In this document: piece after piece, positions 35,626-46,393 of the stretch
Layout of the letters: the number at the start of each line of letters is the position of its first letter
How positions within the stretch are numbered: position 1 is the first letter of the stretch
Source: Acidimicrobiaceae bacterium
GTDB taxonomy: Bacteria > Actinomycetota > Acidimicrobiia > Acidimicrobiales > RAAP-2
Assembly (NCBI GenBank): GCA_027449885.1
Contig: DAIDKS010000022.1
Location: 1-64,000 of the forward strand
Direction of reading: 5' to 3'
DNA: 64,000 nt
Position numbers and translations under genes: made by a program
Notes under the pieces: generated by a model
What the model was told of the DNA's origin: nothing
Databases searched by the model: none
The model's input: only the letters and a program-made list of their open reading frames with translations

Positions 35626-36726
35626 CTACTGCACCCGCACGGGCATGAGGAGGTAGCGGAACCGCTCGTCGTCGACCCCGTGAACCATGGCGGGACGCAC
35701 CGCGTCCGACATCTCGAGCACGACCTCGTCGCCCGGGACCGCGTCCACCCCCTCGATGAGGAAGTTGGGGTTGAACGCGATGGTCAACTCGTCGCCCGTG
35801 TAGTCGGCGTCGACGTTGTCCTCGACGTCGCCGGCGTCGTGGCTCTGGGTACGGATGTCGACACCGCGCTCGTGCATCGTGAGACGAACCGACGAGGTCG
35901 AGTCCTTGGCGAGCAGCTTCGCCCGCCGCAACGACGTGAGGAAGGTGTCCTTCGCCACCCGCAGCCGGTTCGGGTAGGAGGCCGGGATGAGCTGCAGGAC
36001 GGACGGGTAGTTCCCGTCGATCAGGCGGGACGAGATGCTGGTGGGACCCACGACGAAGGAGATCTCGGCGTCGGTGAGCGTCACGCCGATCTCGACGTCC
36101 TCGGCTGTCGAGCCGGCGGCGCGCTGCAACTCCTGGAGGGCCCGGGCGGGCACGAGGACGTCGTGCGACCCCCCGATTGCCTGGACGCCCGGCACGTCAC
36201 GAACGGCCAGTCGGTAGGAGTCCGTCGCGATCAGGCGCAGGTCGTTCGCCTCGGTGGTGAAGAGCACCCCGGTCAGGAGCGGACGGGCGTCGTCGGTCGC
36301 CGCCGCCCGCACGACTTGGCTGAGGCCCTGGACGAGGTCGCCGGCCGCCACCGATACGAGCTGGCCGGTGACGGGGGGCAGGTTGGGGTAGTCCGACACC
36401 GCGAAGGTGCGTAGTGAGAAGCGTGCCCGCCCCAGGGAGACCTCGATGCTCTCCTCGGCCGACTGGACGGTGACCGCCCCCGGCTCCAGGGATCGCACGG
36501 CGTCGACGAGGAGACGTGCTGGGACGACGGCCGAGCCGTCCTCCATCCCGATGACGTCGATCGAGGTGCGAACGGTGATGTCGAGGTCGGTGCCCGTCAC
36601 GACGAGGTGGTTGCCGGTCAGGTGCAGCAGGACGCCCGACGTCGCACCGACGAGGCGGGACGCCACCACCCGGCTCGCGCTCCCGAGGGCCTCCACGAGG
36701 AGGTCGCGCTCAGACTTGAATCGCAT
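35626..36726 (-). CDS. dnaN: DNA polymerase III beta sliding clamp
   Basis: 366 residues, usual length, with the three repeated clamp domains and the C-terminal YLLMPVR(V) segment that forms the hydrophobic protein-binding cleft. ATG follows AAAGGTGA at good spacing. It is the first gene after the origin spacer and reads away from it. Confidence 0.97.
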   Translation of the reverse strand: MRFKSERDLLVEALGSASRVVASRLVGATSGVLLHLTGNHLVVTGTDLDITVRTSIDVIGMEDGSAVVPARLLVDAVRSLEPGAVTVQSAEESIEVSLGRARFSLRTFAVSDYPNLPPVTGQLVSVAAGDLVQGLSQVVRAAATDDARPLLTGVLFTTEANDLRLIATDSYRLAVRDVPGVQAIGGSHDVLVPARALQELQRAAGSTAEDVEIGVTLTDAEISFVVGPTSISSRLIDGNYPSVLQLIPASYPNRLRVAKDTFLTSLRRAKLLAKDSTSSVRLTMHERGVDIRTQSHDAGDVEDNVDADYTGDELTIAFNPNFLIEGVDAVPGDEVVLEMSDAVRPAMVHGVDDERFRYLLMPVRVQ

Positions 36727-36974
36727 CGGTCACCTTTCTTCGTCCACTGAGGTTACGTGGATTGAGTGATAGCAGGAGGACTAGCAGTAGTAGGCCTGTG
36801 GGTTTGTGGAGTACCGATCGTTCATCCTGGTCGTCGGGGTTGTTGGGCGATCGCGCCGCTCCACACCCGTGTGGGTAACTGTCTCAAGTCTCAGAGTTCA
36901 ACCCCGACCCTCTGTGGATAGCGCGGTCCCGATCCACGGGCGAGTGACAGGGTGAGACCCATCTTCTGCACAGT
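36727..36974. other. oriC: dnaA-dnaN spacer, probable chromosomal origin (oriC)
   Basis: 248 non-coding bases between dnaA and dnaN, the actinobacterial oriC position. Two 8-of-9 matches to the DnaA box TTATCCACA (minus orientation) are visible: TGTGGGTAA at 36870-36878 and TGTGGATAG at 36913-36921. Weaker candidates include TGTGGAGTA near 36805. An AT-richer stretch (36741-36795) adjoins dnaN. Few strong boxes are seen, fewer than in Streptomyces, so this may be a compact origin. Confidence 0.65.
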
Positions 36975-38375
36975 TCAGTCGTGGATCTCGCCCTGGATCC
37001 GGCGACGGAGCAGGTTCACCTGGGCGAGCAGGTCGCTGTTGACCGGCAGCTGCTCCTTGATCTTCTCGACCCCGCTGATCACCGTGGTGTGGTTGCGTCC
37101 GTCGAAGATGCGCGCGATCATCGGGTAGGAGTAGTTGTCGAGGAGGTCGCGGATGAGGTACATCGCGACGTGTCGGGCGTGGACGAGGGGCCGGAGTCGC
37201 TTGGACCCACAGATGTCGCTCACCGGCAGGCCGTAGAAGTCCGACACCGCCGCCAGGATGTCCTCGGGCTTGAGGGTGGTCTGCTCGTGACCGAGGTTCG
37301 TCAGGTGCGTCTTGGCGAGGTCGAGCGTCACGGGCTCCTGGCGGAGGTTGGCGAACGCCCGCAGCATGGTGACCGACCCCTCGAGCTCTCGGATGTTGTC
37401 GCGTACTCGGTGGGCGATCCACTCGGCCACGTCGCGTGGCAGGTCGACGCCCTCGGTCTCGGCCTTCGAGTGGAGGATGGCGATGCGCGTCTCGAGGTCG
37501 GGCTGGTCGATCTCGGTGACGAGACCTTGGAGGAGCCGGGAGCGGAACCGCTCCTGGAGCCCCGCGAGGTCGCGGGGCGAGCGGTCCGAGGTCAGGACGA
37601 TCTGCTTGCCCTCGCCGTGGAGCGCGTTGTACGTGTGGAAGATCTCCTCGTGGAACGTCTCCCCACGGGTCTCCATGAACTGGATGTCGTCGATCAGGAG
37701 GACGTCGTTCTCCCGATAGCGCTCGTGGAGGGCCAGTTGCGTGCGGGTCTGGATCGCCCGGATGAAGTCGTTGAGGAAGGTCTCCGTCGAGACGTACAGG
37801 ACCTTGCGACCCGGGTAGTTCTCGTGGACGTAGTTCCCGATCGCGTGGAGCAGGTGGGTCTTGCCGAGCCCGGAGTTCCCGTAGATGAGCAGGGGGTTGT
37901 ACGCCCGTCCGGGCGTCTCGGCGACCGACTGTGCCGCGGCGAAGGCCAGGCGATTGGAGGGCCCGGGCACGAAGGAGTCGAAGGTCATACGAGGGTCGAG
38001 GCGCGCGGGTCGATCGACGCTCGGGGCGTAGGTGGGTGCGGATGGCTCGGATATCTCGGGTGTCGCGGGTGGTGGCGACGACGTCAGGGTGACGTCACTC
38101 ACCGTGAGGGACACCGTCACGTCATCGCCGACGAGCTGGCGCGCCTGATCGGTGATGAAGGGGAGGTAGCGCTGCTGAACTCTCTGCAGCTGGATCTGGT
38201 TAGGCGCAGCAATCACCAAGGTGTTGTCGTGATAATCCACAAGGCGCAACGTGCTGAGACCGGCCGCCCAGGCGGCATCAGAGGCGTTACCCCGCAAGGA
38301 CTCTCGCAACTGCACCCAGATCTCGTCCGCGCCGTCCACGCTCTCCCTCCACAGCTCGTGGCCGAGATTATCCAC
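36975..38375 (-). CDS. dnaA: Chromosomal replication initiator protein DnaA
   Basis: 466 residues. Domain I (about 1-85), a variable Pro/Ser linker, AAA+ core with Walker A GNSGLGKTHL and Walker B LLIDDIQF, and domain IV with the DNA-binding signature DGRNHTTVI. GTG 38375 is chosen: GGGGAG stands 8 nt upstream, while the longer option from 38420 would begin inside the likely -10 element. A perfect DnaA box overlaps this start codon, indicating autorepression. Confidence 0.95.
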   Translation of the reverse strand: MDNLGHELWRESVDGADEIWVQLRESLRGNASDAAWAAGLSTLRLVDYHDNTLVIAAPNQIQLQRVQQRYLPFITDQARQLVGDDVTVSLTVSDVTLTSSPPPATPEISEPSAPTYAPSVDRPARLDPRMTFDSFVPGPSNRLAFAAAQSVAETPGRAYNPLLIYGNSGLGKTHLLHAIGNYVHENYPGRKVLYVSTETFLNDFIRAIQTRTQLALHERYRENDVLLIDDIQFMETRGETFHEEIFHTYNALHGEGKQIVLTSDRSPRDLAGLQERFRSRLLQGLVTEIDQPDLETRIAILHSKAETEGVDLPRDVAEWIAHRVRDNIRELEGSVTMLRAFANLRQEPVTLDLAKTHLTNLGHEQTTLKPEDILAAVSDFYGLPVSDICGSKRLRPLVHARHVAMYLIRDLLDNYSYPMIARIFDGRNHTTVISGVEKIKEQLPVNSDLLAQVNLLRRRIQGEIHD

Positions 38376-38376
38376 A
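38368..38376 (+). promoter_or_regulatory. Perfect DnaA box over the dnaA start codon
   Basis: TTATCCACA, the consensus box, covers the GTG start of dnaA (complement of 38373-38375). Binding would block translation-initiation-region transcription and fits autoregulation. A one-mismatch box, TAATCCACA, lies at 38233-38241 within dnaA. Confidence 0.75.
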
Positions 38377-38418
38377 GCCACGTCTCCCCGGCAAACGAGT
38401 CGTCGGCGGAGGGCGATC

Positions 38419-38424
38419 ACTGTA
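38419..38424 (-). promoter_or_regulatory. Candidate -10 element of dnaA
   Basis: TACAGT on the minus strand, about 43 nt before the chosen GTG start, leaving a short leader with the GGGGAG ribosome site and the DnaA box. Confidence 0.4.
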
Positions 38425-38482
38425 CACCCGTCCGTGGTCCTCGGTGCGAGGGACTTAGGTCAGTGGGTCGACGTCCCTGGGG

Positions 38483-38488
38483 TAAGAT
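38483..38488 (+). promoter_or_regulatory. Candidate -10 element of the rpmH operon
   Basis: TAAGAT, 66 nt before rpmH and divergent from dnaA. The leader between them contains a GCCTCCAGGAGGC inverted repeat (38509-38521), which may fold around a Shine-Dalgarno-like AGGAGG. Confidence 0.45.
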
Positions 38489-38554
38489 TGCCCCCACATC
38501 TGCGCGGAGGCCTCCAGGAGGCGCGACGCGTCGACTCCGAAGAATGAGGTTTCT

Positions 38555-38689
38555 GTGAAGCGGACGTACCAGCCGAACAAGCGCAAGAGAGCCAAGGTCC
38601 ACGGTTTCCGTGCGCGTATGCGCACGCGTGCCGGTCGGGCGGTACTCAAGGCTCGCAGGGACAAGGGCCGTCACCAGCTGACGGTGTGA
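38555..38689 (+). CDS. rpmH: 50S ribosomal protein L34
   Basis: 44 residues, the exact family size, with the invariant start [20 protein letters not shown] and a basic C-terminus. GTG start. It begins the plus-strand operon that runs away from dnaA through rnpA, yidD, yidC and khpB. Confidence 0.97.
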
Positions 38690-38690
38690 C

Positions 38691-39026
38691 GTGCCCGATC
38701 GGGTGCGGACCCGACGGGAGTTCGACCGGTTGGCCCAGTCCCGTAGTCGGGGATCGAGTGGGCCACTGCGGGTCGTCTACGCGCCACCGGAGACCGACGA
38801 GGTGTCGGGAGTCCACGGGGCGTACGCGATCAGCAAGAAGGTCGGAAACGCCGTGGCTCGGAACCGCATCCGCCGACGCCTGCGATCCATCCTCGACGCG
38901 AACGACGAGCGGATCAGGCCAGGATATTACCTGATCAAATGTGGTATTGAGACAGGGAGTCTCACGTATGACGAACTCCGACAGCACCTTGAGCGAGCCA
39001 TCGAGCGAGCACGCCGCCTCCCCTAG
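38691..39026 (+). CDS. rnpA: Ribonuclease P protein component
   Basis: 111 residues with the RNR signature AVARNRIRRRLRSI (about 54-67), which binds the RNase P RNA and the 5' leader of precursor tRNAs. GTG start one base after the rpmH stop. Its last 59 nt overlap yidD in another frame. Confidence 0.95.
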   Translation: MPDRVRTRREFDRLAQSRSRGSSGPLRVVYAPPETDEVSGVHGAYAISKKVGNAVARNRIRRRLRSILDANDERIRPGYYLIKCGIETGSLTYDELRQHLERAIERARRLP

Positions 39027-39276
39027 GGTGTCGCCCCTGGCGAGGGGCGCGATGGCCCTCATCAAGGGGTATCAGAAGATGACCTCGGGCCGGCCCTCCC
39101 CGTGCCGGTTCTACCCCTCGTGCTCGAACTACGCCCTGGAGGCGGTCGAGGTGCACGGGGCCCTGCGGGGTACCATCCTCGCCGCGCGGCGCCTGAGCAA
39201 GTGCCACCCCCTCGGTCCCCACGGCATCGATCTCGTGCCCGCGGCCCGTCCCTCTCGTCGGAAAGGTAAGGACTGA
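38968..39276 (+). CDS. yidD: Membrane protein insertion efficiency factor YidD
   Basis: 102 residues. The family core is intact: ALIKGYQKMTSG, SPCRFYPSCSNYALEAV (three Cys), HGALRGT and KCHPLGPHGIDLVP. YidD is a small membrane-associated helper of YidC. ATG 38968 follows AGGGAGT and lies inside rnpA; the family core starts only near residue 25, so a later start (MALIKG at 39052) is possible and would remove the overlap. Its TGA overlaps the yidC ATG. Confidence 0.9.
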   Translation: MTNSDSTLSEPSSEHAASPRVSPLARGAMALIKGYQKMTSGRPSPCRFYPSCSNYALEAVEVHGALRGTILAARRLSKCHPLGPHGIDLVPAARPSRRKGKD

Positions 39277-40202
39277 TGGGCTCCATCACCCACTCGATCG
39301 GCTCGATCTTCCAGCCGATCTTCCACTTGTTCGGCTGGATCCTCGCGTTCTTCTACGGGCTGATCCCGAACTACGCCATCGCGATCACCCTGCTCACGAT
39401 CGTGATCATGGGGGCGTTGACCCCGTTCACGGTCAAGAGCACGAAGTCCATGCTCGCGATGCAGAAGTTGCAGCCCGAGATCAAGAAGCTGCAACAGAAG
39501 TACAAGGGTCCCGAGAACCGCCAGATCCTCAACGAGGAGCTCATGCGCCTCTACCGGGAGGAGGGGGCCAATCCCGTCGGGGGCTGCCTGCCCGTCCTCC
39601 TCCAGGCGCCTTTTCTATTTATTTTGTATAGTGTCATCCGCGGTCTGACGAATGTGACGTCGGCCGGCGTGGTGGAGCCCCGGTACATCCCGACGACGTC
39701 GAAGATGTACCACAACCTCATCTCGTCGCACGGTCAGATCAACGCCTTCGGGGTGAACCTGGCGCTCAAGCCCTTCAGCCACCACCCGTCGACCGCTGCC
39801 GCGATCCCGTTCTTCGTCCTCGTCGCCGCGGCCGTGGGTCTTCAGTACTTCCAGATGGCCCAGATGAACAACCGGAATCGCAAGTCCGGTCAAGCGATGC
39901 CCTCGCAGCAGCAGATGCTGCAGCGTCTGCTCCCAATCTTCTTCGCGTACTTCTACATCGTGATTCCGGCGGCCGTCGTCGTGTACATGGTGGTGTCCAC
40001 GATCATCCGGATCATCACCCAGGACATCATGTTCCGCACGGGAATCTCCAACCCGAACAAGCAGCCGAAGGGCGAGCGCGCCCTACCGGCGAGCTCGGCT
40101 CCGAAGGAATCGGGACCCTCAACCAGCACCTCGGCGGATACGCCGCCGAAGCCTCAGCAGCAGACGCGGTCTCGATCCAAGCGCAAGAGAAAGGCACGGT
40201 GA
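39276..40202 (+). CDS. yidC: YidC/Oxa1 membrane protein insertase
   Basis: 308 residues without the large periplasmic domain of Gram-negative YidC, as in actinobacteria. Core helices include the conserved QKLQPEIKKLQQKYKG loop, GGCLPVLLQAPFLFILY and a final basic tail (QTRSRSKRKRKA). It inserts proteins into the membrane with or without SecYEG. A short run of AT-rich codons (39608-39632) encodes the third-helix start. Coupled to yidD by a one-base overlap and to khpB by a 4-nt overlap. Confidence 0.95.
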   Translation: MGSITHSIGSIFQPIFHLFGWILAFFYGLIPNYAIAITLLTIVIMGALTPFTVKSTKSMLAMQKLQPEIKKLQQKYKGPENRQILNEELMRLYREEGANPVGGCLPVLLQAPFLFILYSVIRGLTNVTSAGVVEPRYIPTTSKMYHNLISSHGQINAFGVNLALKPFSHHPSTAAAIPFFVLVAAAVGLQYFQMAQMNNRNRKSGQAMPSQQQMLQRLLPIFFAYFYIVIPAAVVVYMVVSTIIRIITQDIMFRTGISNPNKQPKGERALPASSAPKESGPSTSTSADTPPKPQQQTRSRSKRKRKAR

Positions 40203-41164
40203 TACCCGTGGACTGGGTAGAGACAACCGGAAAGTCGGTCGAAGAGGCCACCACCCGGGCGCTGGCGCACCTCGGGGTGCACCCCGACGACGCAGAGGTG
40301 GAGGTCCTCGAAGAGCCCCGTACCGGGCTCTTCGGTCGAGTGAAGGGCGAGGCCCGGGTGCGGGCGCGCGTACGCCCATCGGGTCCACGACCCAAGCGCT
40401 CACGTCGCGCCCGGAGTGGGGCTGATCGAGGTGAGAGCCGTCCGAAGAGCGACCGCCCGCGGTCGGAGAGCTCGTCCGACGGAGGAGCCAACGCCCCGAA
40501 GGGTGGCGCGAAGAAGGGTAAAGCTTCAAGTCAGAAGGGTGGGTCCGCTACGGCCGACACGCCCAAGGTCGACAAGTCGGCGTCGGCGGACAAGCCGAAG
40601 CCCAAGAAGTCGTCCGCTGCGGTAACCGCGGGAAGCCGGGCGACGACGGAGTCGAAGAGGAATTCGAAAGAGGAGGACAAGATGGCCGAGGGAGTCTCTT
40701 TGGCAGAGCAGGGCGAGTTCGCCAAGGAGTTTCTCGTGGGACTTCTCGACTCGCTAGAGATCAGTGCGACGGTGACGACGCGTGAGGTGGACGAGGAGAC
40801 GATCGAGGTCGCCGTCAATGCCGATCCGCCGACCGAGCTGGGAATCCTCGTGGGACCGCGCGGTGTGACACTGCAGGCGGTCCAGGAGATCACCCGGACC
40901 GTCGTTCAGGCGAAGAGTGGTGGGCGAGCCGATCGCGTGATCGTCGACGTGGCTCAGTACCGTGAGCGCCGGGTCGCGGCGCTCGGCCGTTTCGCCCAGA
41001 AGGTGGCCGCTGAAGTCATCGAGACGGGCGAGGAGCGGGCTCTCGAGCCGATGTCGCCGGCCGATCGCAAGGCCATTCACGATGCTCTCTCGGGAGCAGC
41101 GGACGTGGTCACTCGGTCGGAGGGCGAGGAGCCTCGTCGATTCGTGGTGATTTCCCCGGCATAA
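40199..41164 (+). CDS. khpB: KhpB (Jag/EloR) RNA-binding protein
   Basis: 321 residues: a Jag_N domain (DWVETTGKSVEEATTRAL, GLFGRVKGEARVRAR), a low-complexity Lys/Ser/Ala linker (about 60-160), a KH domain (LVGPRGVTLQAVQEIT) and an R3H domain (RERRVAALGRFAQKV, ending PMSPADRKAIH). It binds RNA and influences cell elongation and division in Firmicutes. GTG 40199 overlaps the yidC stop; GTG 40208 is an alternative three codons later. Confidence 0.92.
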   Translation: MIPVDWVETTGKSVEEATTRALAHLGVHPDDAEVEVLEEPRTGLFGRVKGEARVRARVRPSGPRPKRSRRARSGADRGESRPKSDRPRSESSSDGGANAPKGGAKKGKASSQKGGSATADTPKVDKSASADKPKPKKSSAAVTAGSRATTESKRNSKEEDKMAEGVSLAEQGEFAKEFLVGLLDSLEISATVTTREVDEETIEVAVNADPPTELGILVGPRGVTLQAVQEITRTVVQAKSGGRADRVIVDVAQYRERRVAALGRFAQKVAAEVIETGEERALEPMSPADRKAIHDALSGAADVVTRSEGEEPRRFVVISPA

Positions 41165-41171
41165 TCGACTC

Positions 41172-41792
41172 GTGCCAACACTGTGGTTGTCTCGCGCCCT
41201 CGAGGAATCGAGGGCGCGAGGCTTTTTAGGGCCTGGTCCGATCGACGATCACATTCGTCACGCGGCGGCGTTCGCCGACGTCTGGGATCGGCGACGGCCC
41301 ACTCCCCCACGCGCGTTCCTGGATCTCGGAAGCGGTGGCGGGCTACCGGGACTCGTCCTCCTGGAGCGGTGGGGGTGCCGAGGCGTGCTTCTCGACGCCA
41401 TGGAGCGACGGACTGCCTTCCTCGAAGAGGTTCTGCAGCTACCGGAAGCCCCATCGACTGGCGAGGTGTGGCGGGGCCGGGCAGAGACGATCGCGCGTGA
41501 AGATCGTGCCGATGGGGTGTTCGATCTGGTCACCTCGCGATCCTTCGCCGCCCCTGCGGTCACGGCGGAGTGCGCAGCCCGTTTCCTGGTGAACGGCGGT
41601 CTCCTGATCGTGTCCGAACCGCCGGACCAGCGGAATCGCTGGCCCGAGGAGGGATTGTCCCTGGTCGGACTCTCCCCCATCGGGCTCGAGTCGGCCGGCG
41701 GGTTCGGCTTCCAGGTCATCGAGAAGACGCGCGATACACCCGACCGGTATCCGCGCGCCGTCGGTCGACCAGGAAAGACCCCCTTGTTCTGA
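41172..41792 (+). CDS. rsmG: 16S rRNA (guanine527-N7)-methyltransferase RsmG
   Basis: 206 residues. SAM-binding FLDLGSGGGLPGLVL (about 49) and VTSRSFA are typical of GidB. The N-terminus LEESRARGFLGPGPIDDHI matches actinobacterial RsmG, so the GTG at 41172 appears right even though codons 7-17 form a terminator-like hairpin. Loss of RsmG gives low-level streptomycin resistance in relatives. A decayed second copy of its 3' end lies at 41831-41925. Confidence 0.93.
   Translation: MPTLWLSRALEESRARGFLGPGPIDDHIRHAAAFADVWDRRRPTPPRAFLDLGSGGGLPGLVLLERWGCRGVLLDAMERRTAFLEEVLQLPEAPSTGEVWRGRAETIAREDRADGVFDLVTSRSFAAPAVTAECAARFLVNGGLLIVSEPPDQRNRWPEEGLSLVGLSPIGLESAGGFGFQVIEKTRDTPDRYPRAVGRPGKTPLF
41191..41228 (+). 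terminator. 13-bp perfect hairpin plus T-run inside the start of rsmG
   Basis: CTCGCGCCCTCGA (41191-41203), loop GGAA, and its exact complement (41208-41220) are followed by GCTTTTTA. It has all parts of an intrinsic terminator for the rpmH-khpB operon, yet lies within codons 7-19 of rsmG. It may act as an attenuator for rsmG or simply end the upstream operon while rsmG uses another promoter. Confidence 0.7.
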
Positions 41793-41807
41793 GCGCTCGG
41801 TGGGGAC

Positions 41808-41823
41808 TGTTTCACGTGAAACA
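41808..41823. promoter_or_regulatory. parS: parS site 1
   Basis: TGTTTCACGTGAAACA, the exact 16-bp palindrome bound by ParB, 15 bp after rsmG. Confidence 0.97.
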
Positions 41824-41830
41824 TCCCGGG

Positions 41831-41925
41831 TGGCCCGAGGGCGGTCGTCCCTGGTCGGGCCCTCCCCCATGGGAGCCGACGACGAGTGGTGGGTTCGGAC
41901 TCCTTGCCATCGAGGAGGTTCACGG
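41831..41925 (+). pseudogene. Decayed duplicate of the rsmG 3' end
   Basis: Compared with rsmG 41640-41728, this stretch keeps TGGCCCGAGG, TCCCTGGTCGG, CTCCCCCAT, GGGTTCGG and CCATCGAG in the same order and nearly the same spacing, with small indels. By eye identity is around 70%. In one frame it still reads GWPEGG and later GGFGLLAIEE, against RWPEEG and GGFGFQVIEK in rsmG, with a frameshift between. It lies between parS sites 1 and 2. Confidence 0.55.
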
Positions 41926-41995
41926 ACGATCTGAGCGGTGCCTCACTCGGAGCGATGGATCTGCGACCGTGCGCTCACTGCGATCGTCCCGATCC

Positions 41996-42011
41996 TGTTT
42001 CACGTGAAACA
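41996..42011. promoter_or_regulatory. parS: parS site 2
   Basis: TGTTTCACGTGAAACA, perfect palindrome, 188 bp from site 1. Confidence 0.97.
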
Positions 42012-42048
42012 TCACTCGTCCACCGATCGTCAGAGTCTGGCCGGTGAG

Positions 42049-42064
42049 TGTTTCACGTGAAACA
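42049..42064. promoter_or_regulatory. parS: parS site 3
   Basis: TGTTTCACGTGAAACA, perfect palindrome, 53 bp from site 2 (about five helical turns). Confidence 0.97.
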
Positions 42065-42182
42065 TATCGGAGCCTCGGTGGAACTCCGTGGGACCTCGGT
42101 GAGGGATAACCCCTGCTGTGATAAGGGAATCCTCGGGACCGCACCACGCCGAACCCGTCGTGGGTGGGGGGGAGTCGTTCGA

Positions 42183-42198
42183 TGTTTCACGTGAAACA
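42183..42198. promoter_or_regulatory. parS: parS site 4
   Basis: TGTTTCACGTGAAACA, perfect palindrome, 134 bp from site 3 and about 90 bp before parA, where bound ParB could also affect the parAB promoter. Confidence 0.97.
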
Positions 42199-42284
42199 TC
42201 GGTACTTGACCCTGGGGCCCGGCCGGTGTTGAATGTCAGGGGCGCATCGCAGTGTCGGGCTCGGCTAGCGCGGGAATGAGGTCC

Positions 42285-43058
42285 ATGACGGATGACGGAG
42301 CTATGAGGATCTTCGCGGTGGCCAATCAGAAGGGTGGGGTGGGGAAGACCACGACCACGACCGCGCTGGGGGCCGCGATAGCCCAGGCGGGAAAGCGAGT
42401 CCTCGTCGTCGATCTGGATCCCCAGGGGAATGCCACCACTGGTTTGGGTGTGGATGGCCGCAAGTTCGAGCGATCGGTCTACGACGTCCTGCTCAACGAC
42501 GTCCCCATGGTCGACGTCGTCGAGCCGACGGGATTCTCGAACCTCTTCGTCGCCCCCGCGACGCTCGATCTCGCGGGAGTCGAGCAGGAGCTGACCTCGG
42601 TCATCAGTCGTGAACTGCGCCTGAAGCGCTCCCTCGAGTCGGTGGACGGCGACTTCGACTACGTGTTCATCGACTGCCCGCCCTCTCTCGGCTTGATCAC
42701 CATCAACGCCTTCGCGGCGGCCACCGAGATCATGGTCCCCGTCCAGACCGAGTTCTACGCGTTGGAGGGTCTGACGCAGCTGCGTCGCATCGTCGAGTTG
42801 GTGCAGAAGAACTTGAACCCGAGCCTGCACATCACGAAGGTCGTCCTGACGATGTACGACTCGCGCAACACCCTCTCGATCGACGTGGCCAACGAGGTTC
42901 GGCGGCACTTCCCCACCGAGCTCTGCGATACGGTCATCCCCCGAACTGTTCGACTGGCGGAGGCCCCCTCCTTCGGTCAGCCCATCACGTACTTTGACCC
43001 GAACTCCCGAGGAGCTCGGGCGTACCGCCTGCTAGCGGAGGAGATCATGAATGGCTAG
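42285..43058 (+). CDS. parA: Chromosome partitioning ATPase ParA
   Basis: 257 residues. Deviant Walker A KGGVGKTTTT, Walker B YVFIDCPPSLG and DLDPQGNATTG are typical of ParA/Soj. It positions ParB-bound origins using ATP-driven binding to the nucleoid. Possible starts are GTG 42252, ATG 42276, ATG 42285 and ATG 42303; 42285 has GAGG just upstream and 42303 gives the usual MRIFAVANQKGG start. The last 8 nt overlap parB. Confidence 0.95.
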   Translation: MTDDGAMRIFAVANQKGGVGKTTTTTALGAAIAQAGKRVLVVDLDPQGNATTGLGVDGRKFERSVYDVLLNDVPMVDVVEPTGFSNLFVAPATLDLAGVEQELTSVISRELRLKRSLESVDGDFDYVFIDCPPSLGLITINAFAAATEIMVPVQTEFYALEGLTQLRRIVELVQKNLNPSLHITKVVLTMYDSRNTLSIDVANEVRRHFPTELCDTVIPRTVRLAEAPSFGQPITYFDPNSRGARAYRLLAEEIMNG

Positions 43059-43992
43059 AAAGCCCGGACTCGGAAAGGGCCTGGGTGCCCTGATCCCCAA
43101 CGGGTCACCCACCTCCCCGGAGGATGACTCGATCGTCGTCGAGGACGTGGTCGAGACCGGTGGACCGCTTCGCCGCATCCCCGTCACCGCGATCCGTCCA
43201 AACCCGTTCCAGCCCCGCAAGTCGTTCAACGACGACAGCCTGCAGGCCCTGGCCTCGTCGGTACGGGAGTTGGGCGTCCTTCAGCCGCTGATCGTGCGCC
43301 CCGCGGAGGGGGAGGATGGCGCGTTCGAGTTGATCGCCGGAGAGCGTCGGTGGCGAGCCGCCACCTTGGCGGGCCTCGACACCGTCCCCGTCCTCGTCCA
43401 GGACGACGTCAACGATCGGCTCTCCCTCGAGCAGGCCGTGGTCGAGAATCTCCACCGCGTCGACCTCCATCCGCTCGAGGAAGCCGCCGCCTACCAGCAG
43501 CTCATCGACGAGTTCGACCTCACGCACGAGCAGGTCGCCCAGCGAGTCGGTAAGAGTCGAGCAAATATTACGAATACGTTACGACTTCTCCAACTGGGGG
43601 AGGCTGCGCAGGCGGCCCTGGTCAGCGGGGATATCACCGCGGGTCACGCTCGCTCGCTGCTCGCCATCTCCGATCCCAACGCCCAGGCGCTCATGGTGGC
43701 CCGGGTCATCAAGAACGAGATGTCGGTGCGCGCGACGGAGGAGGCGGTTCGAACCTTCCTGGAGCCCAAGCCGACACCGGTGCCCGACGGGGGAGCGCCG
43801 CAGGTCGCCGGCGCTCCGCGCCTTCGGCCCGTTCCGGACGCCAGCGTGGCGGAGCTGGAGCACCTGCTCGAGGACTACCTCGACACCCGCGTGCACGTCG
43901 ACCTGCGTGGCCGAAACGGTCGGATCGTGATCGACTTCGCGGACCTCGACGACCTCGAGCGGATCTACCTGGCGATCTCCAAGGCCCACTGA
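43051..43992 (+). CDS. parB: Chromosome partitioning protein ParB
   Basis: 313 residues. The CTP-binding N-terminal domain shows IRPNPFQPRKSF and the GERRWRAA motif; the helix-turn-helix region reads EQVAQRVGKSRANITNTLRLL; a C-terminal dimer domain ends the protein. ParB loads at the four parS sites just upstream and spreads as a CTP-gated clamp. ATG 43051 overlaps parA by 8 nt. An AT-rich codon run (43561-43585) falls in the helix-turn-helix. Confidence 0.96.
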   Translation: MARKPGLGKGLGALIPNGSPTSPEDDSIVVEDVVETGGPLRRIPVTAIRPNPFQPRKSFNDDSLQALASSVRELGVLQPLIVRPAEGEDGAFELIAGERRWRAATLAGLDTVPVLVQDDVNDRLSLEQAVVENLHRVDLHPLEEAAAYQQLIDEFDLTHEQVAQRVGKSRANITNTLRLLQLGEAAQAALVSGDITAGHARSLLAISDPNAQALMVARVIKNEMSVRATEEAVRTFLEPKPTPVPDGGAPQVAGAPRLRPVPDASVAELEHLLEDYLDTRVHVDLRGRNGRIVIDFADLDDLERIYLAISKAH

Positions 43993-44004
43993 CCCTCAAC
44001 CTTC

Positions 44005-44029
44005 AACCTCACCTTCTCGTTGAGGTTTT
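44005..44029 (+). terminator. Probable intrinsic terminator of parAB
   Basis: AACCTCA (44005-44011) pairs with TGAGGTT (44021-44027) around a 9-nt loop and is followed by TT then CCCC. It lies 13 nt past the parB stop. Weak stem, so moderate support. Confidence 0.45.
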
Positions 44030-44121
44030 CCCCAAGTTGTGGATGAAGTTGTGGGTATCGGATGCGAAGACTCGAGAATCCCTTGTGGCGCAAGGGGTAT
44101 CGGAAACCACAGGCACCCGAA

Positions 44122-45042
44122 TCAGCTTCGGATGGCCTCTTCCAGGATGCGGCAGAAGGCCGTGGCGAGGACGTCGATCTGGTCGTGGGGGAGTGGACCG
44201 TGGGCCACGTGCAGTGTGGTCATCTTGGTCTCGCGCAGGATGGGCAGAGCCATGCCGGAGATCTCGACGCGCGACTGGGTCCCGTCGTGGGCGAGCTCGC
44301 CGGCCAGGGCCGCGGCGAGCTCGGCCCCGCGACGGGAGTGGGACCGGTAGCTCGCCCAGTAGTTGAGGTGGATCCCGAGGCCGTCCGCCACCTCCTCGAC
44401 GTCGAGGACGATCGCGGCGTTGGACTCGTTGGCGAGGGCGGCGACCGCCACGGGGTCGCGATCGATCAGGAGCGTCATCGTTCCGTGGTGCTCCCAGGCG
44501 CGCGCGATGGCGGTCGCCAGGTCACTGACCCCGGCCACCACGATCAGGTCCGATGGCGGGCGGTCGAAGCCCGCGAGGTCGCGCGCCTCCGTCACCAGAC
44601 GGCGGTCGCGGGCGACCGAGGTCATCCGCAGGACCTCGAGCAGGGTCGCCCGGTTGAGCACCCCGTCGGACTCGAGGCCCCGATTCTTCTGGAAGTCGCC
44701 CAAGGCGTGCTCAAGGAGGGGGCCGAAGATGCCGTCGATGCGCCCGGGGTTGAATCCGAGCTGCGCCAGGCGGACCTGCAGCTCGGCGACGTCGTCGCCC
44801 CGCAAGTGGGGACGTGCGAGGAAGAGCAGGCGCTGCCCCAGGTGCCACCCGGCCTCGATCAGCCGGGACCAGGTGGTGTCGTCGACGACGCCGGAGATCG
44901 CGAGCCCGCGAGCCCGCTGGAACGCCTCCACGACCGACACCGTTCGGTCCGAGAAGGCGTCGTCTCCCTCGACCGGGGTCGAGTAACCCAGGGCGCGAAG
45001 TCGGGCGTGGAGCTCGCGGACGTCCTCACCGCGGTCGCCCAG
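44122..45042 (-). CDS. cwlM: CwlM-like protein: two peptidoglycan-binding repeats and a pseudo-amidase domain
   Basis: Two peptidoglycan-binding type 1 repeats (LGDRGEDVRELHARLRALGY...; RGDDVAELQVRLAQLGFNPG) precede a region laid out like an Amidase_3 domain (RRGAELAAALAGELA, LPILRETKM). The zinc ligands are missing: the DPGHGG site reads VVAGVSD and the second His segment is also changed. Mycobacterial CwlM, in the same place, regulates MurA rather than cutting wall; the same is inferred here. The first repeat extends upstream of the only standard start (GTG 44940). Between it and the trxA stop no ATG, GTG or TTG is in frame; CTG 45042 is the best candidate. Confidence 0.75.
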   Translation of the reverse strand: MGDRGEDVRELHARLRALGYSTPVEGDDAFSDRTVSVVEAFQRARGLAISGVVDDTTWSRLIEAGWHLGQRLLFLARPHLRGDDVAELQVRLAQLGFNPGRIDGIFGPLLEHALGDFQKNRGLESDGVLNRATLLEVLRMTSVARDRRLVTEARDLAGFDRPPSDLIVVAGVSDLATAIARAWEHHGTMTLLIDRDPVAVAALANESNAAIVLDVEEVADGLGIHLNYWASYRSHSRRGAELAAALAGELAHDGTQSRVEISGMALPILRETKMTTLHVAHGPLPHDQIDVLATAFCRILEEAIRS

Positions 45043-45072
45043 CGAGAGGGGGAGGCGGGCCGTCGCTCGTCC

Positions 45073-45399
45073 CTAGAGCGCTGCGGAGATCTCGCGCAGG
45101 AGTGCGGCCTTGGGCTTGGCACCGACGATCCTCGCCGCCACCTTGCCGTTCTTGAAGAGGAGGAGGGTGGGGATGCTCATCACCGAGAACTTCGTCGCGG
45201 TCGCCACGTTGTGGTCCACGTCGAGCTTGCCGATGGTGAAGTTCTCGGACTGCTCCCGTGAGAAGTCCTCCAGGATCGGGGCGATCATGCGGCACGGCCC
45301 GCACCACTCGGCCCAGAAGTCCACCAGGATGGGCTTGTCCGCCGAGCCGACGACCTCGTCGAACGTGGCGTCGTTCAGGATCTGGATCGGGCTGCTCAT
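45073..45399 (-). CDS. trxA: Thioredoxin
   Basis: 108 residues, the usual size, with active site [14 protein letters not shown] and cis-Pro loop [14 protein letters not shown]. It passes electrons from TrxB, encoded just upstream. ATG 45399 follows GGAGG at good spacing; an in-frame start four codons earlier lies within that site and is rejected. Confidence 0.96.
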
Positions 45400-45444
45400 G
45401 ACGTCCTCCACGGGAGAAAGGTGGCCTCCACCTTAGCGAGCGAC

Positions 45445-46393
<949 letters not shown>

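Follow-up and report, generated by a model that had tools for sequence, protein, structure and literature searches.

In the 64,000-nucleotide stretch of DNA analysed here (the window), the first codons of rsmG also spell out a strong RNA hairpin with a U-tract directly behind it. We consider it probable, from comparison with related genomes, that hairpin and U-tract together are an intrinsic (Rho-independent) terminator of the rpmH-rnpA-yidD-yidC-khpB transcript which overlaps the start of rsmG, and that rsmG is attenuated. We infer that transcription terminates there, and likewise how efficiently it does so and that a low output of rsmG results. Both messages appear to be kept together in a genus of uncultured Actinobacteria, and similar double messages appear to have been made in other lineages. 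That this stretch serves both to encode protein and, probably, to end the rpmH-khpB transcript had been proposed in a preliminary description of the DNA, and at the level of sequence this dual use is now well supported by covariation, by a U-tract made of rare codons and by intergenic hairpins that lie at a similar distance from khpB in relatives whose khpB-rsmG gap is longer.

The hairpin at the khpB-rsmG junction

The + strand of the window carries, in this order, rpmH, rnpA, yidD, yidC, khpB, rsmG, parA and parB (identified with Pfam), in a host genome of 1.98 Mb and 49 contigs; on the opposite strand are what we take to be dnaA and the sliding clamp gene, from reading the frames and recognizing the names. 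The positions of the features discussed are collected in Table 1. rsmG opens with GTG, 7 nt past the khpB stop codon, and no Shine-Dalgarno sequence was seen before it on inspection by eye. The gap between the two genes is 7 nt in 19 of 29 rows of the genus alignment and ranges from 3 to 11, the value of 3 being a wrong-frame match and that of 5 coming from a row with Ns (L020). A start of rsmG downstream of the hairpin was considered and ruled out: the conserved GFLGP motif follows directly after the stem, and codon 1 is a start codon in all 28 intact genus sequences (GTG in 21, ATG in 7). The preliminary description had also raised a transcript start between khpB and rsmG, and none appeared there in a sigma-70 consensus scan of positions 36000-46000, a scan that does not cover other promoter types and that gave a single site, elsewhere.

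Table 1. Features at the khpB-rsmG junction (window coordinates)
Feature	Position	Strand	Remarks
khpB (jag)	40199..41164	+	Closes the series rpmH-rnpA-yidD-yidC-khpB; stop codon TAA, 41162-41164; Pfam R3H, Jag_N
rsmG (gidB), 16S rRNA methyltransferase G	41172..41792	+	GidB, Pfam PF02527, E 1.7e-13
Stem, 5' arm	41189..41203	+	rsmG codons 6-11
GGAA loop	41204..41207	+	GNRA-type in 23 of 28 genus sequences
Stem, 3' arm	41208..41222	+	rsmG codons 13-17
U-tract TTTTTA	41223..41228	+	Phe18-Leu19 codons TTT TTA; TTTTT at 41223-41227, then A

Other repeats were seen nearby. The segment 41831-41917, 3' of rsmG, is 75% identical (BLAST) to the 3' part of rsmG (~41640-41726), a partial duplication; no such copy was seen by eye in the 282 nt behind rsmG of a close relative (L033). 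Four perfect parS sites (TGTTTCACGTGAAACA) lie between rsmG and parA, at 41808, 41996, 42049 and 42183.

The core of the stem joins 41191-41203 to 41208-41220 by 13 Watson-Crick pairs, so that the perfect 13-bp stem with a GGAA loop first noticed in the rsmG frame is confirmed both by pairing and by folding. Its extent had been given as codons 7-19, which places the core correctly and leaves out the first two pairs, as pairing can begin at 41189, in codon 6. The extended stem (41189-41222) has 15 pairs, of which 11 are G-C and one is G-U. It starts 24 nt past the khpB stop and 17 nt from the rsmG start codon, and with the U-tract it takes up codons 6-19. The predicted fold of 41165-41235 has an energy of -36.2 kcal/mol (z -4.5); none of 200 shuffled sequences folded as well, nor did any of 150 synonymous recodings of the window's peptide. 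No Rfam family reached its gathering score anywhere in the window. Three of the features expected of an intrinsic terminator are found here, namely a stable GC-rich stem, a U-tract directly behind it and a structure under selection.

How unusual the hairpin is can be judged from 386 kb of the genome, comprising the window and one stretch from each of 20 of the 49 contigs. In this sample 44 stems with a tight loop are 11 bp long or longer. Of these, 27 were called coding, and two of the coding ones reach 15 bp; the calls follow a crude GC3 rule, and one 'intergenic' stem, at 40308 of the window, lies inside khpB. Among the 44, the rsmG hairpin alone is followed directly by five T, and it is one of only three stems of at least 10 bp in the sample with at least five T in 8 nt. 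Stems of 18-22 bp called intergenic, mostly without a U-tract, occur in the same genome at L058:633-673, L058:2753-2792, L073:13242-13293 and L064:4783-4828.

Two codes in one stretch of the genus

A search of 36 genomes of the genus gave 27 loci with the rsmG 5' end (one of them, L020, with Ns in the stem), two partial loci without it and seven genomes with no match. The 28 intact sequences compared are the intact genus loci, the window and contig JAJZUS010000001.1, with L020 left out and four further same-genus genomes outside the set. The identity of their RsmG proteins to that of the window is 52-62% for the 27 genus loci and 85% for JAJZUS010000001.1. The 28 sequences align without gaps from the start codon, and the hairpin core is kept in every one. 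In the 28 by 15 alignment of sequences and pairs, 96.0% of the 420 cells are paired; sliding the partners by 1-3 columns, as a control, leaves 27-61% paired. Changes on both sides are found at 8 of the 15 pairs, in 18 cells against a shuffled mean of 3.5, and none of 500 shuffles equalled the alignment on these measures, although the sequences are related and the counts are not independent events. The pairing is conserved in the relatives, and the compensatory changes that the preliminary description had proposed to look for are present. The weak pairs are the outer three, which are unpaired in 4, 7 and 4 of the 28 sequences, leaving a conserved core of 12-13 pairs. RNAalifold, given the same alignment, draws the inner 12 pairs only and takes the U-tract into a small second helix that has no double changes.

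The third bases of codons 7 and 16 covary (CG in 19 sequences, UA in six, AU in one and unpaired in two, n=28). In L030 two core pairs and the loop, which becomes GAAA, have changed, and in L021 the substitution A9V occurs together with A15T and the pair is kept. The loops of the 28 sequences are GGAA in 21, AGAA in three, GGAG in two and GCAA and GAAA in one each; a GNRA-type loop is found also where codon 12 changes from E to Q or K. When each sequence was recoded with its peptide preserved, the fold was matched in 0 of 150 trials for 22 sequences and in 1 of 150 for the other six. Synonymous diversity is 0.21 at rsmG codons 8-19 (12 codons) against 0.65 at 71 other conserved codons, a contrast for which the Mann-Whitney p of 5e-8 should be read as a size and not as a probability, because the rows are related.

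The U-tract is written in codons that this genome otherwise avoids: in an ORF sample called by the same crude rule, TTA makes up 0.14% of Leu codons and TTT 4.2% of Phe codons. Within the genus it reads TTTTTA or TTTTTG in 24 of 28 sequences, the others having TATTTA (two), CATTTA (one) and TTCTTG (one). Where the protein has Phe-Leu or Phe-Phe at this place and GC is at least 50%, a run of at least five T is present in 31 of 32 sequences with the hairpin (25 of 26 in the window's genus, one of these 26 rows being L020 with Ns in its stem, and 6 of 6 members of a second family, f7, that have the hairpin within rsmG) and in 0 of 36 without it; the GC cut was set after the data had been seen and leaves out one genome (G210, 41% GC) that has five T but no hairpin. 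We read this link between hairpin and U-tract as pointing to an intrinsic terminator and not just to a stem of some kind. The rare TTA and TTT codons, and the joint occurrence of A9V and A15T, suggest that protein and RNA constrain each other here.

Embedded and intergenic hairpins in other families

rsmG was placed in 143 genomes of the order, of which 30 belong to the window's family (f1), 50 to f7 (those examined out of 58 members with a match) and 63 to other families. In f7, 15 of the 50 carry a hairpin of different sequence, 12-16 bp long, in the same register; these 15 are spread over six genera. Six of them show five or six consecutive T, and in genus g7 the sequence behind the hairpin is TTTTTC. 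The other nine (L087, L095, L103, L109, L112, L115, L117, L119 and L123) have lost the T-run, with another residue in place of Phe, while the same-register stem is there, which would make them U-less terminators or stems with another role. Genus g42 of f7 includes a member (G077) with neither stem nor T-run. The only other genus seen in the window's family (G121, locus L155) has a different, longer hairpin, which begins in the first codons, ends at the same 3' place and has TCTTTTGG behind it. At ~900-980 of that locus the first ~25 rsmG codons form one long, nearly unbranched hairpin of -46.7 kcal/mol for 80 nt.

Four members of other families and one more member of f7 have strong hairpins within rsmG that were assigned to other registers. 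L105, L136, L111 and L172, from four families, have hairpins of 12-17 bp in other registers of the rsmG 5' coding region. The 11-bp stem of L132 (G173), also counted as another register, proved by hand to lie about in the common one, and it has no T-run. Long flanks were available for 62 loci outside the genus, and these contain 18 stems of 12 bp or more: 10 fall within the 6.2 kb around the rsmG start (eight of them in the same register) and the other eight in the remaining 193.8 kb. When the same-register state is mapped onto an rsmG tree of 65 rows, five changes are required, and well-supported branches force at least three of them, so that this state has been gained or lost several times; the tree is of one short gene with the hairpin codons included, it leaves out G220, G223, G192, G144, rows shorter than 140 residues and three quarters of the f1 rows, and G121 is labelled 'not' in it. 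A sample across the phylum gave an anchor at 14 of 30 loci, one of them doubtful (L190). In the counts of register, spacing and the strict rule given below, rows placed by a fallback (at least L030, L087, L103, L105 and L119) are anchored one codon late, which was corrected in the T-run count.

A strict rule (at least 11 bp, a loop of 3-8 and at most one G-U) divides the 143 genomes into 45 with an embedded hairpin, seven with an intergenic one, 91 with neither and none with both. The embedded ones make up 26 of 30 in f1, 15 of 50 in f7 (a count that includes G070, in another register, and misses G098, with two G-U) and 4 of 63 elsewhere; in f1 the rule excludes L009 and L026 for having two G-U, L020 for its Ns and L155 for its long loop. 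Since 91 of the 143 have neither hairpin, a terminator at the khpB-rsmG junction is not obligatory. If the rule is relaxed to 10 bp, a loop of up to 10 and two G-U, an upstream stem joins the embedded one in L112 and L132, the upstream stem lying in khpB or at its stop, and L105 has a stem with a loop of 9 across the khpB stop besides its embedded stem.

The Gly codon of the GFLG motif lies behind the khpB stop by 43-103 nt in 42 embedded cases, 113-186 nt in five intergenic ones and 40-204 nt in 59 with neither, khpB not having been located by pattern in 37 of the 143 genomes. Measured from the khpB stop, intergenic stems of 11-17 pairs (G-U counted) start at 25-38 nt, against 24 nt in the window; further stems are a second one in L113 at 70 nt and 9-bp ones at 6 and 88 nt. 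In f8 and f15, which stand nearest to f1 on the rsmG tree, an intergenic hairpin lies 25-26 nt past the khpB stop (that of f15 has two G-U and so fails the strict rule), and 5 of 7 loci of f84, a family with large chromosomes, have an intergenic stem of 12-15 bp with a T-rich tail 16-19 nt past khpB. From these positions the terminator behind khpB looks old in these Actinobacteria, the gap having closed in the lineage of the window so that the signal came to lie inside rsmG. This suggests a way in which the close packing of genes can move a terminator into the gene that follows.

Possible functions and comparison with known systems

If the hairpin is a terminator, a ribosome finishing khpB would be about far enough back not to block its folding, and a ribosome starting on rsmG would usually come too late to melt the stem. 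RNA polymerase would then mostly stop at 41223-41228, and rsmG would be made from the fraction that reads through, a constitutive attenuation. Because there is no fitting start codon behind the hairpin, every rsmG message crosses it, even one from a promoter within khpB; as every rsmG mRNA must contain the hairpin, rsmG is probably attenuated and fed by read-through. A transcript ending at codon 18-19 leaves the ribosomes on rsmG without a stop codon, which is costly and counts against a terminator. So do the four of 28 genus sequences in which the stem stays though the U-tract is broken, and the strong intergenic stems of the 386-kb sample, which mostly lack a U-tract; the ordinary terminators of this genome may be U-less.

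Experiments with the tR2 terminator in E. coli bear on the timing. They are reported to show that termination is maximal when the terminator starts more than ~27 nt past a stop codon and that tR2 works when it lies within 100 bp of the beginning of a coding region, where ~10% is lost to translation, the reason given being that the first ribosome has not yet caught up with the polymerase (PMC4824070). By analogy, both conditions nearly hold for a hairpin 24 nt from a stop and 17 nt from a start, and the same reporters suggest that ribosomes would hardly suppress a terminator so close to a start codon. Melting of the hairpin by ribosomes as a means of regulation is possible, because ribosomes can keep terminators from forming (in the part of PMC12548453 concerned). 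A more elaborate proposal, which we think unlikely, is a regulatory gate: hairpin and U-tract lie 17-57 nt inside a gene that starts 7 nt past the khpB stop, so only a ribosome re-initiating at once from khpB would arrive in time to let the polymerase through, the output of an rRNA methyltransferase would report ribosome-transcription coupling, and the circuit would have arisen more than once. No conserved upstream helix with the 5' arm, as an antiterminator would form, was found in the 125 nt before the stem at 28 loci; the places of candidate helices vary, and L004 alone stood out (10 bp, 4 of 100 shuffles).

Stems stay without a U-tract in 4 of 28 genus sequences and 9 of 15 f7 members, and for this reason the stem may have a function for which a U-tract is not required; these stems, together with the messages that would lack a stop codon, keep a role in stability or translation alive. 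One such role is that of an mRNA 3'-end or stability element, the hairpin stopping exonucleases or guiding the processing of a khpB-rsmG co-transcript and so protecting the upstream genes, with no end of transcription. The stems just mentioned fit it, but a protective hairpin needs no U-tract, whereas U-tract and hairpin go together where the protein permits it (31 of 32 against 0 of 36) and the U-tract uses very rare codons; we judge it quite improbable. Somewhat harder still to accept is control of translation, in which initiation of rsmG, or re-initiation after khpB, is tuned by a strong stem that lies 17 nt past a weak GTG start. This would account for the nearly fixed start codon, gap of about 7 nt and stem position in the genus, and for a stem more strictly kept than its U-tract. 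It leaves unexplained the link to the U-tract and the intergenic hairpins 25-38 nt past the khpB stop, where the rsmG start is further away, and the embedded stem of f7 starts anywhere from 22 to 75 nt past that stop.

An inverted repeat close to dnaA and to four parS sites also brings to mind a palindromic site in the DNA, bound by a protein near the replication origin. Its arms change together instead of keeping a motif, and in 37 genomes, 23 of them of the genus, the matches to the core with at most one mismatch all lie in rsmG; within the window the core occurs only once even when three mismatches are allowed. A dispersed site is rejected on these grounds, and a DNA site of any kind seems to us scarcely credible. 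The same holds, more strongly, for a mere by-product of the peptide RALEESRARGFLGP and codon bias with no RNA function. Peptides like L-R-x-A-Q or R-A-L-E-E-S-R-A-R can indeed be encoded self-complementarily, but a recoded peptide folded as well in at most one of 150 trials per sequence, codon diversity collapses at the hairpin codons only, covariation falls at third codon positions, and L021 changed two residues with its pair kept.

It is already known that terminators occur in coding regions and that 3' ends lie inside ORFs (PMC4824070, PMC7815308, in the passages concerned); what is new is the conserved, repeatedly evolved overlap of a predicted terminator with rsmG, which was not found in titles, abstract openings and passages of the literature on rsmG with terminators or attenuation and on related topics. 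It offers a clean natural case of one DNA stretch under two codes, with covariation that can be read from relatives. Gene callers, and terminator predictors restricted to intergenic regions, would miss such signals, and the many natural variants, with or without a U-tract, embedded or intergenic, lend themselves to testing the interplay of ribosome and terminator.

The hairpin resembles the intrinsic terminators found behind operons in its GC-rich stem, 4-nt loop, U run and place 24 nt past the stop of the last gene, and differs from them in lying wholly inside the coding sequence of the next gene and being conserved together with it. The mycobacterial jag-gidB junction has the same gene order. 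According to the passages of PMC2346475 on this junction, the two genes are co-transcribed in M. bovis BCG and not in M. smegmatis, gidB has upstream promoters of its own, and the authors were unable to rule out that the downstream gene contains termination signals; unlike at rsmG here, no embedded hairpin is described in those passages. With the pyrBI-type leader-peptide attenuators cited in PMC4824070 it shares a terminator whose action could depend on the position of a ribosome, and it differs from them in that no conserved antiterminator was found at rsmG. Some E. coli 3' ends likewise fall inside a reading frame; intrinsic termination was predicted by the authors for 20% of the 5'-UTR and ORF-internal ends under one growth condition, as stated in a passage of PMC7815308. 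Those ends were mapped by experiment in one species, whereas the end in rsmG is predicted, with comparative support. A similar geometry is found in the E. coli tR2 reporters of Li et al. (in the part of PMC4824070 already drawn on), where the terminator lies 30 bp from the start codon, as against 17 nt for the stem in the window, and the ribosome is in both cases expected to come too late; those reporters were engineered, whereas the rsmG hairpin is natural and selectively kept over a genus.
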